Shown here one piece after another: positions 57,554 to 64,000 of a stretch of 64,000 bases of DNA. How positions within the stretch are numbered: position 1 is the first letter of the stretch; each line of letters starts with the position of its first letter. The DNA is from Magnetospirillum sulfuroxidans. GTDB taxonomy: Bacteria; Pseudomonadota; Alphaproteobacteria; Rhodospirillales; Magnetospirillaceae. The translations under genes were made by a program, and so were the position numbers. Below the pieces are notes generated by a model, which saw only the letters and a list, made by a program, of their open reading frames with translations, searched no databases and was not told the DNA's origin. The stretch covers positions 10,942 through 74,941 of the forward strand of contig NZ_JAGTUF010000007.1 in assembly GCF_018224925.1 (NCBI RefSeq), in the 5' to 3' direction.

Positions 57554-58381
57554 ATGAAAACGAAGTTCATCACATTGCTGTGCCTATTTTTTTTGGCATT
57601 CACCCCAACATCTTGGGGGATCGCAGCCGAAGCGCTGCGTGTCGGCGTCGTGCCGCAATTCGATTCCCGCCATCTCAGCGCCATCTGGACGCCGGTGCTG
57701 GAACGACTGGGCCGAGATACCGGATTAGCCTTCCAGTTGGACATCCCCCCCAGCATTCCGGCCTTCGAGAAAAATCTGGATGCCGGTCAATACGATCTTG
57801 CTTATATGAATCCCTATCACTTCGCCATCGCCCATAAGCGCCAAGGCTATGAAGCGCTGGTTCGCGATCTGGCCGGCGATTTCTCCGCCATCATCGTCGT
57901 TGCGCGGGATTCACCGATTACCTCCGTCGCCATGCTGGCCGGCAAGACCGTGGCCTTTCCGTCGCCCAACGCCCTGGCGGCGCTGTTGCCGCGGGCGGAT
58001 TTCGCCCGCACCTTCCACATCGCCGTCACCGAGAAATACACAAAAACCCATTCCTCGGCTTACCTGAGCGTGGCCTTGGGCGAAGCCGATGCCGGCGGCG
58101 GCGCGCGATCCACTTTTGAAGTGCTCGACCCGCAGATCAAAAGCCGCTTGCGGATCGTGTACGAGAGCCGCCATTTCCCGCCCCATCCTTTGGCCGCGCA
58201 TCCGCGCGTGCCCCCCACGCTTCGCCAACAGATCACCCTGGCCTTTTTAGCCTTGGCGACGGAGCCGTCAGGGGCGGAATTGCTGGCGGAAATCCCCATG
58301 AAACACGCAGGTCCAGCTCAATCCGGCGATTATGCCGCATTGACCGGTCTGGATCTGCAAGCCTTCCGCATCGACCAATGA
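57554..58381 (+). CDS. PhnD-like periplasmic substrate-binding protein, likely sensor subunit
   Basis: The 275-residue protein has a signal peptide to about residue 25. It then has the phosphate/phosphonate-type binding-protein core (LRVGVVPQFDSRHL, YDLAYMNPYHFAIAH, GKTVAFPSPNALAA, ALGEADAGGGARSTFE). No ABC permease or ATPase is near. Its stop overlaps the kinase start (ATGA). Together these suggest that it feeds a ligand signal to the kinase rather than transport. The ligand is not known; phosphonates are only a family guess. Confidence 0.88.
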   Translation: MKTKFITLLCLFFLAFTPTSWGIAAEALRVGVVPQFDSRHLSAIWTPVLERLGRDTGLAFQLDIPPSIPAFEKNLDAGQYDLAYMNPYHFAIAHKRQGYEALVRDLAGDFSAIIVVARDSPITSVAMLAGKTVAFPSPNALAALLPRADFARTFHIAVTEKYTKTHSSAYLSVALGEADAGGGARSTFEVLDPQIKSRLRIVYESRHFPPHPLAAHPRVPPTLRQQITLAFLALATEPSGAELLAEIPMKHAGPAQSGDYAALTGLDLQAFRIDQ

Positions 58382-61300
58382 ACGCGCGCATCAGACTTCT
58401 GCTCCCCTTCATGGTGCTGCTGACGGCGGTGCTGGGGATCATGCATTTCGTCATCTTCGATATGCTCAAGCAACGGCTGATCGCCGACAAGCTGCACTCG
58501 GAACAACAGGCCTTGGCCATGGTCTCCCTGGCCATCGCCCCCGATCTGCTGAGCGGCGACATGGCCAAAATCTACGATACCTTGAACGATGTTTGGGCCG
58601 AGCGCTTATGGTGGCGGTCCATGACCCTTGAGCGCGCCGATGGCCGCTTGCTGTTCCCGTTGCATCGCCCGGTTCTGATGGGCGGCCTCACCAAGCTAAG
58701 CAGCCCGGTCCGGGTTGATCGCCGTGACCTGGCGGTCCTGACCATACACAGCGACATCCCGGCCACCATCGCCGACAGCCTTGGCATCATGGCGCAGATG
58801 GAAATTATCGTCATCCTACTGCTGTTGGCCGGCGCCGCCCTGGTGGTCCATTTGCAGGGCCGTTGGCTGCTGACCCCATTGGCCGGCCTGGCCCGTGCCG
58901 CCTTTGCCCTGTCGCAAGGCAGCACCACCATCACCCTGCCCCGCGCCTCGGGCGAGGTTGGCGTGGTGGTCACCGCCTTCACCGACATGATGCGCGCGGT
59001 ATCTTCCCGCGAAGCGGCGTTACGGCACAGCGAATCGCGACTTGCCGCGGTCATCGACAGTTCAGGTGAAGCGGTCATCACCTTGAATGCCAACACCGTC
59101 ATCATCTCGTGCAACAAGGCGGCGGAAAATATCTTCGGCTATGAACAACGCGAAGTGGCCGGTTTGCCGTTGTCTCAATTGCTGCCGCATCACCCTTGCA
59201 CCCCGACCAGCGCCGAGGGCTGCGAGACCATCGGCCACAAAGTCGATGGGTCGGATGTGGCGCTGTGGCTGATCCTGACCGAGATCACCGTGGCCGATGG
59301 TCGCCTGTTCGTCGCCACCATCAGCGACATCACCTCGCGCAAACAGGCCGAGGCGGAATTGCGTGAAAGCGAAAGCCGCTTTCGCGATCTGGCCGGCTCG
59401 GCCTCGGATTGGTTTTGGGAAACCGATGACGAACATCGTCTGACCTTCGTCTCGGAACGCCTGGGGGCGGTTTTGGGGGTCAAGCCCTCGGCCATCATCG
59501 GTTTCTCCTATATGGATTTGGGACTGGCCGACGCCGAACCCGGGCTGGTGCAGTCCCATCTTGACGATCTGGCGTCATGCCGGCCGTTCCGCGACGTCGT
59601 CTTTCCGGTCGGCCCGCTGGGCGGCAAGGATGGTCGCTTCATCCGGATCAGCGGCCTGCCTTTGTTCGATAACGACGGCTGCTTTCTCGGCTATCGCGGT
59701 GTCGGCGCCGACATCACCCGCGAAGTCATCGCCGAACGCCAGGCCAAGGAAGCCCGCCAGCGTCTGGCCGACGCCATCGAAAGCATCAATGACAGCATCG
59801 CCGTCTATGACGCCGAGGATCGGCTGGTGCTTTTTAACCAGGAATGTCGGCGGGTTTTTTCCGGCATGCTTGATTCCTTGAAACTGGGAATGACCTTCGA
59901 ACAGATCATCTCGGCCTCGGCGACCATCAAGCAATTCGACCAAGACGGCGTTCCCACCGAGGAATGGCGACAGAACCGTCTGGCTGTTCACCGTGCCGCC
60001 ACCGGCGAACCCACCATGCAGCATCTGTCCGATGGCCGTTGGCTCTTGTCGCGGGAATACCGTACCGCCGATGGCGGCGTCGTCGCCGTGCGCACCGACA
60101 TCACCTTGTTGAAACAGCGCGAAGAAGCGCTCGACACATTGCAACGGCGCTATCAGCTGATCCTGGATGCCGCCGGCGACGGCATCATCGGTCTTGATGC
60201 CCAGGGCCTGATCAGTTTCGCCAACCGCGCCGCCTGCGATCTGTTGGGAATCGGCGATGAAACCATTGTCGGCCACAACTATCACACCCTGATCGACCCG
60301 GAATCGGCCAACGATTCCGGCAATGCCGTCCGTCGCGCCTATACCCTCGGGCTGGCGGAAAAGGTCGAGGATGCATTATTCCGCCATGGCGACGGCCGCG
60401 CCCTCCAGGTGGAATATCTGGTCGCGCCGATCTTGGAACAACACAACGTCGTCGGCGCCGTGGTGGTGTTTCGCGATGTCAGCCTGCGCCGTCTATACGA
60501 ACAGACCTTGGCCGACCAGCAGCAATTGCTTGAACAGCAAGTGGCCGAACGCACCGCCGCGCTGAGTGCGTCACAGCAGCGCCTGAGGGGGATCTCGGAC
60601 AATCTGTTCGAAGGGGTGCTGGTGGTCGATGAGGCGGGTCAGATTTCCTTTGCCAACAATTCCGCCCGCGGCCTGCTGCAATGCCCCCACGCCCAAGGGC
60701 TCGCCCTTGACCAGGTGATGCGCCTGGGCGTCGGCACCGACCTTATCGGCTTCACCCGCGCTTGCTGGCCCAAGGTCATCGCCGACGGCAAGCCCAACCA
60801 CGACGACGACGCCCGTTTCGTCACCGCCGCCGGCACGACGCTGAACGTGGCGTTTGGCTGTTCGCCGCTGATCGAACAAGGCCGTTGCGTCGGCGCCATC
60901 ATCTCGTTCCGCGACATCGGTCAGTTAAAGAATGCCCAGCAAGAAGCGCTGCAATCGTCGCGCCTGGCCAGCGTCGGTCAATTGGCCGCCGGCATCGCCC
61001 ATGAAATCAACACGCCGATCCAATATGTCGGCGACAACCTTCGCTTTGTCCGCGACGCCATCGGCGATATGGCCAACGTGTTGGCCATGGCCCGCACCCT
61101 GGCGCACAGCAGCGACAGCGGCAATTGCCAGGATTTCGAAACCGCGTATGCCGCCGCCGATATCGATTATCTCAAGGATGAACTGCCGACCGCCATCGAC
61201 CAATCCCTCGACGGTGTCGCCCAGGTATCGCGCATCGTCTTGTCCATGAAGGAATTTTCCCATCCGGGCAGTTCCCACAAAAGCATGACCGATATCAACC

Positions 61301-61767
61301 GGGCGCTGGACAGCACCCTCACCGTCAGCCGCAACACCTGGAAACAGGTGGCCACCATCGAAACCGATTTCGCCGCCGATCTGCCGCCGGTTCAGTGCCA
61401 TGCCGGCGAAATCAATCAGGTTTTCCTCAACCTGATCACCAACGCCGCCCATGCCATCGAAGCGTCGGGCAAGCCTCTGCCGGGACGCATCGCCATCACC
61501 ACGCGAAAAGATCGAGACAACGTCCGCATCAGCATCCAAGATAGCGGCACAGGCATCTCAAGCGCCATCAAAGAGAAGATTTTTGACCCATTCTTTACAA
61601 CCAAATCGGTCGGCAAAGGTACCGGCCAAGGCTTGGCCATCTGCCTGGATGTGATCAAGATCAAACATGGCGGCCGTCTGGACGTGAACGGCAACGAAGG
61701 CAATGGCGCTGAATTCGTCATCACCCTTCCCATCGATGGCTCCGCCGAGGCAAGCGCCAATGACTGA
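58378..61767 (+). CDS. Membrane-bound multi-PAS hybrid-free sensor histidine kinase
   Basis: The 1129-residue kinase has a first membrane segment (LLLPFMVLLTAVLGIMHFV), a short periplasmic loop and a second segment (IIVILLLLAGAALVV), followed by a HAMP-like linker. About five PAS-type domains come next (for example LAAVIDSSGEAVITL, LILDAAGDGIIGLD and FEGVLVVDEAGQISF). The phospho-acceptor His875 is in GIAHEINTPIQYV, and the ATPase has the N-box NLITNAAHAI and DSGTGIS. It overlaps the PhnD-like gene by 4 bases and the next regulator by 8 bases. It probably senses the binding protein's state and passes phosphate to the two receivers that follow. Confidence 0.9.
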   Translation: MNARIRLLLPFMVLLTAVLGIMHFVIFDMLKQRLIADKLHSEQQALAMVSLAIAPDLLSGDMAKIYDTLNDVWAERLWWRSMTLERADGRLLFPLHRPVLMGGLTKLSSPVRVDRRDLAVLTIHSDIPATIADSLGIMAQMEIIVILLLLAGAALVVHLQGRWLLTPLAGLARAAFALSQGSTTITLPRASGEVGVVVTAFTDMMRAVSSREAALRHSESRLAAVIDSSGEAVITLNANTVIISCNKAAENIFGYEQREVAGLPLSQLLPHHPCTPTSAEGCETIGHKVDGSDVALWLILTEITVADGRLFVATISDITSRKQAEAELRESESRFRDLAGSASDWFWETDDEHRLTFVSERLGAVLGVKPSAIIGFSYMDLGLADAEPGLVQSHLDDLASCRPFRDVVFPVGPLGGKDGRFIRISGLPLFDNDGCFLGYRGVGADITREVIAERQAKEARQRLADAIESINDSIAVYDAEDRLVLFNQECRRVFSGMLDSLKLGMTFEQIISASATIKQFDQDGVPTEEWRQNRLAVHRAATGEPTMQHLSDGRWLLSREYRTADGGVVAVRTDITLLKQREEALDTLQRRYQLILDAAGDGIIGLDAQGLISFANRAACDLLGIGDETIVGHNYHTLIDPESANDSGNAVRRAYTLGLAEKVEDALFRHGDGRALQVEYLVAPILEQHNVVGAVVVFRDVSLRRLYEQTLADQQQLLEQQVAERTAALSASQQRLRGISDNLFEGVLVVDEAGQISFANNSARGLLQCPHAQGLALDQVMRLGVGTDLIGFTRACWPKVIADGKPNHDDDARFVTAAGTTLNVAFGCSPLIEQGRCVGAIISFRDIGQLKNAQQEALQSSRLASVGQLAAGIAHEINTPIQYVGDNLRFVRDAIGDMANVLAMARTLAHSSDSGNCQDFETAYAAADIDYLKDELPTAIDQSLDGVAQVSRIVLSMKEFSHPGSSHKSMTDINRALDSTLTVSRNTWKQVATIETDFAADLPPVQCHAGEINQVFLNLITNAAHAIEASGKPLPGRIAITTRKDRDNVRISIQDSGTGISSAIKEKIFDPFFTTKSVGKGTGQGLAICLDVIKIKHGGRLDVNGNEGNGAEFVITLPIDGSAEASAND

Positions 61768-62980
61768 CAAGACCCGCATCTGTTTCGTCGATGACGAGCC
61801 CAATATCCTGCAAGGCCTGAAACGCTTCATGCGGCCCATGGCCGACGAGTGGGAGATGGAGTTTCATCTCAGCGGCGATGCCGCCCTGTTTTCCATGATT
61901 CAAAATGGTCCCTTCGATGTCGTGGTCAGCGACATGCGCATGCCCGGAATGGATGGCGCCGCCTTGCTGACCCGCATCCGACAAGACTACCCCCAGACCG
62001 TCCGGGTCATCTTGTCGGGCTATGCCGACAATGAATCGATTTTGCGCACCATTGGCCCCGCCCATTCCTATCTGGCCAAGCCCTGCAACGGCGAAACCCT
62101 GCGCGCCGCCATCCGCCAGCCCTTGGCCCTGCGCCGTCTCTTGTCGTCCGATGTCATGCGCCGCGCCTTGGGCGGACTTGAATCCCTTCCCAGCCTGCCC
62201 GATCTGTTCATTCGCCTGGACCGGGAACTGCACGCCGCCAATTCCTCCACCGCCTCTGTCGCCCGCATCATCGGTTCAGACACCGCCATGAGCGCGGAAA
62301 TCCTGAAACTGACCAATTCCGCCTATTTCGGCATCGGCCAACCGGTCAACTCGGTGTTGCAGGCGGTGCGCACCTTGGGATTGGAAACCATCCAGACGGT
62401 GATCCTTAAGACCGCCATCTTCCGGCGTTTTTCCGGCAGCGCCCAGGTCGCGCCGTTTCTCGACGGCCTTAATCGGCATGGACTGGCCTTGACGCGGCTG
62501 GCAAAGGCCATCGCCCTTTCCATCGGCAGCTCCACCACCATTGCCGAAGCCGCCGGTTGCGCCGCCCTGTTATCCAATATCGGCGCCCTGGTGCTGCTGG
62601 ATTGTCACGGCGCCGATTATCCGCGGATGCTGGGGCAGGTGAACGCCGATGTCCCGGTCCATCAGGCCGAAATCAATGCTTATGGCGTCCATCACGGTCA
62701 CGTTGGCGCCTATTTGCTGGGATTGTGGGGCTTCGCCGACCGGGTGGTCGAAGCGGTGGCCCATGCCCCCGCCCCAAGTCAGGCCGGGCGTTACGACAAC
62801 GACCTGCTGACCATCGTCCATCTGGCCCGCAGCCTGGGGCCGGCCTTCCCCCCCTTGCCGCAAAACGTCCACGACGTCCGCCACCTGGACAGCGAATATC
62901 TCAGCCGAACCGGGCTGGTGGCGCACTTGCCCAAACTGACCGAACTGGCCCAAAACATTGCCGCCGAGGTGTCCCCATGA
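61760..62980 (+). CDS. Response regulator with HDOD output domain
   Basis: The 406-residue protein has a receiver domain (ICFVDDEPNILQGL, phospho-Asp in VVVSDMRMPGMDG, Lys in SYLAKPCNGE). An HDOD domain follows (SLPSLPDLFIRLDREL, then AEILKLTNSAYFG and AVRTLGLETIQTVIL). HDOD domains are metal-free HD relatives that act in signalling by protein contact. The ATG at 61760 overlaps the kinase stop. It is followed by another receiver protein with an ATGA overlap. Confidence 0.9.
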   Translation: MTDKTRICFVDDEPNILQGLKRFMRPMADEWEMEFHLSGDAALFSMIQNGPFDVVVSDMRMPGMDGAALLTRIRQDYPQTVRVILSGYADNESILRTIGPAHSYLAKPCNGETLRAAIRQPLALRRLLSSDVMRRALGGLESLPSLPDLFIRLDRELHAANSSTASVARIIGSDTAMSAEILKLTNSAYFGIGQPVNSVLQAVRTLGLETIQTVILKTAIFRRFSGSAQVAPFLDGLNRHGLALTRLAKAIALSIGSSTTIAEAAGCAALLSNIGALVLLDCHGADYPRMLGQVNADVPVHQAEINAYGVHHGHVGAYLLGLWGFADRVVEAVAHAPAPSQAGRYDNDLLTIVHLARSLGPAFPPLPQNVHDVRHLDSEYLSRTGLVAHLPKLTELAQNIAAEVSP

Positions 62981-64000
62981 GCGAACGCGTCCTCTTGATC
63001 GACGATGACGCCAACTTGCTGTCGGCCTTGCAGCGGCAGTTGCGCAAGCAATTCAACCTGACCACCGCCGAAGGGGGGGCGGCGGCGCTGGATGAAATCA
63101 AACGGGCCGCGGCCGACAATGCCCCGTTTGCCGTCGCTCTTTCCGACATGCGCATGCCCGGCATGGACGGGATCGAAACTCTGAGCCGAATCCGCCAGTC
63201 CTCGCCCGATACCGTCCGCATGATGCTGACCGGCAACGCCGATCAGCAAACCGCCATCGACGCCATCAACCTTGGCAACATCTTTCGTTTTTTCACCAAG
63301 CCGTGTCCGGCCGAAACCTTGGCGTTGGGCCTGCAAGCCGGCATTGATCAGTACCGCCTGATCACCGCCGAACGGGAATTGCTGGAAAAGACCCTGGCCG
63401 GCAGCGTCAAATTGCTGGTCGACGTGGTGTCCATGAACGACCCGGTGGCCTCGGCACAAAGCAATCGCCTGCGCCAATGGGTGCGGAAGCTGACGCAGGA
63501 ATTGAACCTGCCGGCGCGCTGGCAATTGGACATCGCCGCCGCCCTGGTGCCCATCGGGCTGGTTTCAATTCCGCCTGAATTGATTACCAAGCAGCGCGAC
63601 GGCGCCCCTCTGAGCCCCGACGAAGCCGCCTTGTTCGAACGTGCGCCGGAAGCGGCGCGCAACCTGATCGCCAATATTCCGCGTCTTAGCGCCGTCGCCG
63701 AAATCGTCTATCTGCAAGACCGCAATTATGACGGCACCGGCTTTCCGTCGGGCGGCCCCAGCGGCGGCATGATCCCGTTGGACGCCCGTATCTTGAAAAT
63801 TCTCAAGGACCTGTCCGAATTCAGTGGCGGCAACATTCCCAGCCCGGCCGCCTTTGCCGCCTTGGAAAAGAATGAAAAACGCTATGACCCGCTGCTGCTC
63901 AAGAAGGTCAAGCAATCGCTCTGCGTCCGCGAAGACCCGCTGGCGGTCACCGTGGTCGAAGTCCCGGTTGCCGCCTTGCGCGCCGGCACGGTGGTCTTGT
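62977..64000 (+). CDS. Response regulator with degenerate HD-GYP domain, cut by window edge
   Basis: The 341 visible residues begin with a receiver (VLLIDDDANLLSAL, phospho-Asp in VALSDMRMPGMDG, Lys in FFTKPCP). The second part has the HD-GYP fold order but not its metal ligands: ALVPIGLVSIP stands where HDIGKIxVP is expected, and YLQDRNYDGTGFP replaces HHExxDGxGYP. It is therefore unlikely to cleave cyclic di-GMP. The gene starts with an ATGA overlap after the HDOD regulator and runs beyond the right edge, so the end is unknown. Confidence 0.85.
   Translation, partial: MSERVLLIDDDANLLSALQRQLRKQFNLTTAEGGAAALDEIKRAAADNAPFAVALSDMRMPGMDGIETLSRIRQSSPDTVRMMLTGNADQQTAIDAINLGNIFRFFTKPCPAETLALGLQAGIDQYRLITAERELLEKTLAGSVKLLVDVVSMNDPVASAQSNRLRQWVRKLTQELNLPARWQLDIAAALVPIGLVSIPPELITKQRDGAPLSPDEAALFERAPEAARNLIANIPRLSAVAEIVYLQDRNYDGTGFPSGGPSGGMIPLDARILKILKDLSEFSGGNIPSPAAFAALEKNEKRYDPLLLKKVKQSLCVREDPLAVTVVEVPVAALRAGTVVL

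Follow-up and report, generated by a model that had tools for sequence, protein, structure and literature searches.

Four overlapping genes at the right-hand end of a 64,000-nucleotide stretch of the Magnetospirillum sulfuroxidans genome (contig NZ_JAGTUF010000007.1, positions 10,942 to 74,941; G000:C58:10942-74941 of the 4.13 Mb genome) probably encode a sensory system of the three-component type whose output has two parts, neither of them catalytic. We refer to the whole stretch as the window. The genes encode a PhnD-like periplasmic binding protein, a sensor histidine kinase and two response regulators, the first joining a receiver to an HDOD domain (REC-HDOD) and the second joining a receiver to an HD-GYP domain that has lost its catalytic residues (REC-dead-HD-GYP). 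In the most likely reading, a periplasmic anion signal reaches these two non-catalytic regulators, which act by contact on the cyclic di-GMP (c-di-GMP) machinery. Judged from gene order, what recurs as a unit is the regulator pair together with a kinase, which usually lies alongside, and not the four-gene set. The features that can be read directly from the genes are their order and overlaps, the loss of catalytic residues, the near-fixed pairing of the regulators, the mixed kinship of the kinase ends and the exchange of inputs. The four genes are as follows.

57554..58381, + strand: gene 1, PhnD-like periplasmic binding protein, 275 residues (PF12974, 189.9 bits; PDB sequence matches; Foldseek search with its model)
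58378..61767, + strand: gene 2, sensor histidine kinase, 1129 residues (HATPase_c, five PAS domains, H-box)
61760..62980, + strand: gene 3, response regulator REC-HDOD, 406 residues (Response_reg and HDOD, 151 bits, Pfam)
62977..64000 in the window, continuing to 64131, + strand: gene 4, response regulator REC-degenerate HD-GYP, 384 residues (Response_reg and HD_5, 145 bits, Pfam)

The original prediction, made from the letters of the window, took these genes for one overlapping unit, and all are present as listed, with overlaps of 4, 8 and 4 bases between successive genes. The stop codon of gene 4 lies 131 bases beyond the window, and its complete copy is found at L009:7919-9073.

A near-fixed pair of response regulators

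We examined the gene 4 family in a sample of 81 loci, composed of the window's own locus and 80 named loci, the 80 most similar of 411. Related genomes repeatedly show the order kinase, REC-HDOD, REC-dead-HD-GYP, which argues that the arrangement in the window is beyond chance. A scripted search for a REC-HDOD gene ending within -60 to 400 bases of the gene 4 receiver placed one directly upstream in 73 of the 81 loci, or 74 with L127, where the overlap is longer. Three loci are cut by contig ends (L147, L163 and L194), so that the pair stands in 74 of 78 uncut loci and the receiver genes 3 and 4 can be regarded as near-fixed partners. The kinase follows the pair, rather than preceding it, in 20 loci (19 from Thalassospira, and L167) and in L197. 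The original prediction had proposed the full four-gene set as the conserved unit. This we rejected: a PhnD-like gene stands in front in only 6 of the 81 loci and the front gene varies among them, while the kinase and the two regulators recur.

The association also holds between genomes. A gene 4 match over at least 313 residues was found in 25 of 61 related genomes and a match split over two contigs in one more, leaving out a match in G014 (32% over 273 residues). An HDOD match of at least 130 bits is present in 25 of the 26 genomes with gene 4 vs 4 of the 35 without it, in a hand tally whose threshold was picked after the list was seen and whose genomes, being related, are not independent. 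Gene 3 is the sole HDOD match in the window's genome.

Loss of the catalytic site in gene 4

Aligned on PmGH (4mcw), gene 4 has substitutions at the HD dyad, the later histidine and the HH pair, as predicted from the window, and the loss extends throughout the sampled family. The HD dyad is kept in none of the 81 members (histidine occupies the first place in six, none with aspartate after it), the first histidine of HH in none, the second in two, and the equivalent of H250 in one. Members were found with patterns taken from the receiver domain and so were not selected by their HD residues. The full set expected of a catalytic HD-GYP c-di-GMP phosphodiesterase (HD, HH and further metal ligands) is therefore missing from the sample, and the possibility raised at the outset, that homologues keep all HD-GYP ligands, was not borne out among these 81 members. 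The phospho-accepting aspartate is present in all 81. As a control within the same genome, the REC-HD-GYP protein P0004 has HD, HH and an RPYK stretch intact.

It is unlikely, though it deserves weighing, that gene 4 instead binds c-di-GMP as a receptor, in the manner of DvhD, an inactive HD-GYP protein. The module would then integrate an outside signal with the c-di-GMP level and would not work through contact alone. DvhD binds c-di-GMP although SQ replaces its HD and Met-Asn its HH (PMC13090378), and it (9rbz) is among the PDB relatives of the HD part of gene 4. We mapped the DvhD contact places named there (R650, Y652, R653, L577 and K582) by our own count along the alignment. The place of L577 is leucine in 78 of the 81 family members and that of K582 is lysine or arginine in 44, with alanine in the window's gene 4. 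The glycine and proline of GYP, kept in all 81, also favour a receptor, while the tyrosine, which is phenylalanine in 74, counts against one. What makes the receptor role less likely is the R-x-Y-R stretch of DvhD (R650, Y652, R653): the pattern R-x(0-2)-Y-[KR] occurs in 0 of 81 members within residues 250-330 of the trimmed sequences, whereas the catalytic control P0004 has it as RPYK.

The AlphaFold model of gene 4 has a predicted local distance difference test score (pLDDT) of 88 and a predicted template modelling score (pTM) of 0.63, the latter leaving the domain arrangement unsure. About 60 residues at its C-terminus (approximately 325-384; window 63949-64000, and on to 64131) are conserved, with the consensus ALRxGxxxLSDIRLxNGHLILAAxTxLS, and have no Pfam match at E<=1. 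P0004 itself, the live HD-GYP counterpart of the dead gene 4, lies in a second auxiliary-sensor cluster of the same genome (L203:158-7973; G000:C11, about 680157-687972), together with a FIST protein (Pfam), a hybrid kinase with a receiver, and a further kinase. A gene 4 that is 64% identical to the window's comes from a record titled Stygiobacter sp. (Ignavibacteriota; L130), which is probably a mislabelled bin.

The HDOD partner

Phosphate sinks are an established theme among two-component systems, and two receivers beside one kinase, 36% identical to each other over residues 4-142 of gene 4, could be taken for such a case. There would then be a single real output, the other regulator (most likely REC-HDOD) acting on timing as a sink or buffer for phosphate, in a pathway that is not functionally branched. 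We regard this as improbable: the HDOD part is kept as well as the receiver, the listed homologues of gene 3 matching at 35-77% identity and mostly near full length, and an HDOD profile accompanies gene 4 at the uncut loci counted above.

What HDOD domains do in signalling is poorly understood, and a near-fixed partnership with dead HD-GYP regulators of the HnoD/NosR type offers a concrete setting in which this can be tested. Should the two regulators form a single output complex, one and the same assay (a kinase, two receivers and a c-di-GMP enzyme) could be used behind H-NOX, FIST and binding-protein sensors. We found no paper treating HDOD together with H-NOX in the open-access literature, a scope that makes for weak evidence of absence.

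Two variations on the pair were observed. Seven Thalassospira operons (L170, L171, L172, L176, L177, L180 and L190) have two tandem REC-HDOD genes before the dead HD-GYP gene. At L098:2372-10676 and L163:2187-9951 two kinases flank the regulator pair: the kinase before it carries CHASE in L098 and, in L163, dCache with a hemerythrin domain; in both loci the pair is followed by a PhnD-like protein and a kinase, as if two inputs converged on one regulator pair.

The sensor kinase

Gene 2 was predicted to be a membrane kinase with about five PAS domains and a HisKA domain. The multi-PAS architecture stands: when residues 211-868 were divided into five consecutive pieces, a PAS model scored over its cut-off in each, weakly in the second and fifth, which gives five PAS domains. 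HATPase_c is likewise present, and a phospho-acceptor H-box, AHEINTP, starts at residue 874; PF00512 (HisKA) has no match in gene 2 at E<=0.01 (Pfam). Across the 81 loci, 87 kinases score above 200 bits against a custom kinase profile, and 85 of these have an H-box. This, taken with the phospho-aspartate of the gene 4 family, leans towards branched phosphotransfer, as far as conserved residues can indicate it. Gene 2 matches the NahK/ErcS' model NF041831 at 100.5 bits, against a cut-off of 1500, as one among many kinase matches.

The membrane end and the PAS-kinase body of gene 2 look to be of different kinship, which from sequence comparison suggests a chimeric kinase. The membrane end (approximately residues 1-215) has hydrophobic segments at 1-32 and 129-165 and neither a HAMP nor any other Pfam match, with a HAMP match present in its relative in L098. 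Residues 1-215 match 10 kinases including gene 2 itself, all adjoining a related binding protein; the database included seven hand-added kinases, of which six adjoin a binding protein and are among the 10, so the informative part of this search is that no kinase without a binding-protein neighbour was matched. Residues 216-1129 match FIST-linked kinases at 49-50% identity in the PAS part and 60-62% in the core, and among others also a MASE1/CHASE kinase. M. fulvum DSM 13234 (L142) also has a PhnD-like protein ahead of a kinase and the regulator pair; the N-terminus of its kinase has no BLAST match to that of gene 2 and a weak match to a relative of that end (L097, E 2e-4).

The periplasmic binding protein and its surroundings

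Gene 1 has a hydrophobic, signal-like N-terminus, and its sequence matches PtxB, ArrX and PhnD in the PDB. The predicted model (pLDDT 90.3) resembles PtxB, ArrX, PhnD and AioX; among the 50 Foldseek matches listed, the best E-value is that of PtxB, and the highest template modelling (TM) scores, 0.78/0.83, belong to ArrX, at 22% identity in the structural alignment. The histidine and aspartate of the AioX pocket, as named in PMC5908839, are apparently kept in an alignment read by eye, and the place of the arsenic-binding pocket cysteine is asparagine in the same kind of reading (MNPYHF vs ICTYSF in ArrX). AioX and ArrX sense anions on behalf of a kinase (PMC5908839), and gene 1 shares with them the position of a PhnD-like protein beside a kinase without a transporter, the pocket cysteine being absent. 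A small anion is its putative ligand.

The proximity of a binding protein to a membrane kinase, from which ligand sensing was first proposed, recurs among related genes. In the stretches examined, which cover part of the 60 places found by search, a kinase directly follows 25 of 26 related binding-protein genes, the remaining one lying at a contig end. The 26 distinct genes correspond to 29 open reading frames less two on duplicate contigs and one for a gene in two pieces. As predicted, gene 1 also has no transporter partners: no ABC transporter gene adjoins the four-gene run on either flank among the neighbours scanned on both sides. A phosphonate transporter past the right edge, the finding that would have spoken against a sensory role, is ruled out, with a convergent DUF3095 gene overlapping gene 4 by 17 bases there instead, followed by a peroxiredoxin and a TonB-type receptor. 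On the left, a DUF485 gene and a sodium:solute symporter gene lie on the opposite strand. Flank gene sizes agree in the close relatives L124 and L125 (left 103 and about 550 residues; right DUF3095 and 166 residues).

It is very improbable that the role of gene 1 is transport, in trans with a phosphonate/phosphite ABC transporter encoded elsewhere, its place by the kinase being incidental: the PF12974 fold, PtxB and PhnD among the top matches and eight further PF12974 places over cut-off in the genome would suit such a role, but a kinase regularly follows related binding-protein genes, a related kinase membrane end accompanies a related binding protein in nine other loci, and gene 1 scores 76 bits against the PhnD equivalog TIGR03431, under its cut-off of 261.1.

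Exchange of sensor inputs

We assigned front-end classes over the 81 loci with custom profiles. H-NOX is at the front of the operon in 10 loci, two of which (L195 and L202) are without an HDOD gene, a PhnD-like protein in six, FIST in three and PBP_like_2 in three, with none recognised in 59; the PhnD-like count would be seven if two contigs of L123/G012 were taken as neighbours. A check with Pfam recovered HNOB in four of four scanned and FIST in four of four scanned, three of the latter being copies of FIST loci counted. It also found Phosphonate-bd in L139 and L142, and one case each of Peripla_BP_6, PBP_like_2 and SBP_bac_3. Among kinases checked, one carries MASE1 with CHASE, another CHASE, and a third dCache with hemerythrin. 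As the same regulator pair stands behind predicted nitric oxide sensors in relatives, it appears to be a general output for signalling whose sensors can be exchanged.

On the gene 4 tree, whose long branches were flagged by the tree tool, all 81 loci give four input changes for PhnD, two for FIST and two for H-NOX. With 13 of the 59 rows without a recognised front end dropped (12 are cut by contig ends; in the other, L129, the HDOD frame is broken and a kinase is lacking), the remaining 68 loci give two for PhnD, two for H-NOX and one for FIST. The PhnD-like front ends fall in two clades, with binding proteins about 28% identical. Two separate uptakes of PhnD-like inputs are likely, perhaps from one old input type.

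Tentatively, we can go further and consider it possible that the two regulators join in a single non-catalytic output complex under phospho-control, a general Rhodospirillales "output cassette" that has been plugged into H-NOX, FIST, unrelated binding proteins and CHASE/MASE1 kinases. In the lineage of the window, a FIST-linked (nitric oxide-type) kinase body would have been re-fronted with a binding protein, so that a branch that sensed gas became a sensor of periplasmic anions, and PhnD-like inputs would have been gained at least twice. Such natural sensor swapping provides chimeras for studying how unrelated inputs drive one kinase body.

Kinship with nitric oxide and c-di-GMP signalling

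The best NCBIfam match of gene 4 is the NosR model NF053512 at 238 bits, the next match scoring 51, and six other members of the gene 4 family score 226-258 bits against the same model. It is also the best NCBIfam match of gene 3 (121 bits, on the receiver only). A search of the window's genome gave no match to H-NOX (HNOB) and two to FIST, both away from this locus. Gene 4 has the receiver and degenerate HD-GYP domain of an HnoD-type protein, and the link to an H-NOX kinase, absent from the window's genome, is seen in the 10 H-NOX loci.

As reported in PMC6335343, HnoD of Shewanella oneidensis is inactive and suppresses the phosphodiesterase HnoB through direct interaction. One review gives HnoD an inactive diguanylate cyclase domain (PMC8738867), at odds with the HD-GYP description. 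In Burkholderia pseudomallei, NosK phosphorylates NosR, whose HD-GYP motif is altered (PMC12570481). Separately, in two Thalassospira loci (L181:7469-8620 and L187:7468-8619) a REC-EAL gene leads the HDOD/dead-HD-GYP/kinase operon; neither EAL nor ELTE motifs were found in these by regular expression, so that they may be degenerate too.

Proposed mechanism

The proposed sensory system would operate as follows. The PhnD-like protein would bind a small anion in the periplasm and dock on the membrane end of the kinase, which may add cytosolic inputs via its PAS domains. The kinase would then autophosphorylate at the histidine of HEINTP and pass phosphate to both receivers, making the pathway branched. 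Both outputs are expected to work by contact with other proteins. The dead HD-GYP protein would be an HnoD-like modulator switched by phosphorylation, probably inhibiting a c-di-GMP enzyme whose gene lies elsewhere, and the HDOD protein would usually accompany it or act as its scaffold.

Several observations weigh against parts of this scheme. In three of the 78 uncut loci (L160, L195 and L202) the gene immediately upstream of the dead HD-GYP gene is the kinase and not an HDOD gene, and in L152 another receiver gene intervenes, with REC-HDOD one gene further off, so the HDOD partner is not obligatory. Because the sample is the best 80 of 411, members more distant than these might keep catalytic residues. 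Gene 4 is below the NosR cut-off (238 vs 400 bits) and the catalytic P0004 also matches that model, at 138 bits, on its HD-GYP part; the likeness of gene 4 to HnoD of S. oneidensis is drawn from the published description of HnoD. The kinases of L139, L140, L142, L184, L192 and L196, which stand beside a PhnD-like protein, have no match to the membrane end of gene 2. As for a target, no REC-EAL orthologue (HnoB-like) was found in the search of the window's genome, and REC-EAL genes occur in only 5 of the 81 loci, two of them without an EAL motif by regular expression; a local REC-EAL target as in HnoB was considered and set aside on these counts.

Comparison with known systems

For the outputs, the nearest parallels are in nitric oxide signalling. 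In the HnoK-HnoB-HnoD system of S. oneidensis (PMC6335343), the kinase phosphorylates several regulators, one of them REC-degenerate HD-GYP, and relatives of gene 4 are themselves found in H-NOX-kinase operons. Here, by contrast, a periplasmic binding protein stands at the place of H-NOX, a REC-HDOD is added, and a search of the genome found no REC-EAL partner. The NosP-NosK-NosR system of B. pseudomallei (PMC12570481) likewise combines a REC-degenerate HD-GYP protein, a separate auxiliary sensor and a kinase, and supplies the best-matching model, NF053512. The present system differs in scoring below the curated cut-off, in having a PhnD-like protein at the place of FIST and an extra REC-HDOD, and in its long five-PAS kinase with a membrane end of its own.

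At the input side, the closest known systems, AioX-AioS-AioR and ArrX-ArrS-ArrR (PMC5908839), share with the window a PhnD-like sensing protein beside a kinase, ArrX having the highest TM score among the 50 structures listed. They differ in that gene 1 is only 22% identical to ArrX and has asparagine at the place of the arsenic-binding cysteine, that the outputs here are without a recognised DNA-binding domain, and that no arsenic enzyme was found among the scanned neighbours of the four-gene run. TtrS-type kinases with fused PhnD-like domains (PMC5408782) also use the PhnD-like fold as a kinase input, whereas here it is a separate gene, with another output. DvhD (PMC13090378) has likewise lost HD and HH, but it is a membrane protein with PAS, not a response regulator, and its R-x-Y-R stretch is not in gene 4.

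The original prediction had called the full set little described. This has to be narrowed, with REC-degenerate HD-GYP regulators (HnoD, NosR) and binding-protein plus kinase sensors (AioX, ArrX) already in print. The kind of output has precedents, and the signalling unit is real and recurring, with a boundary other than the one first read.

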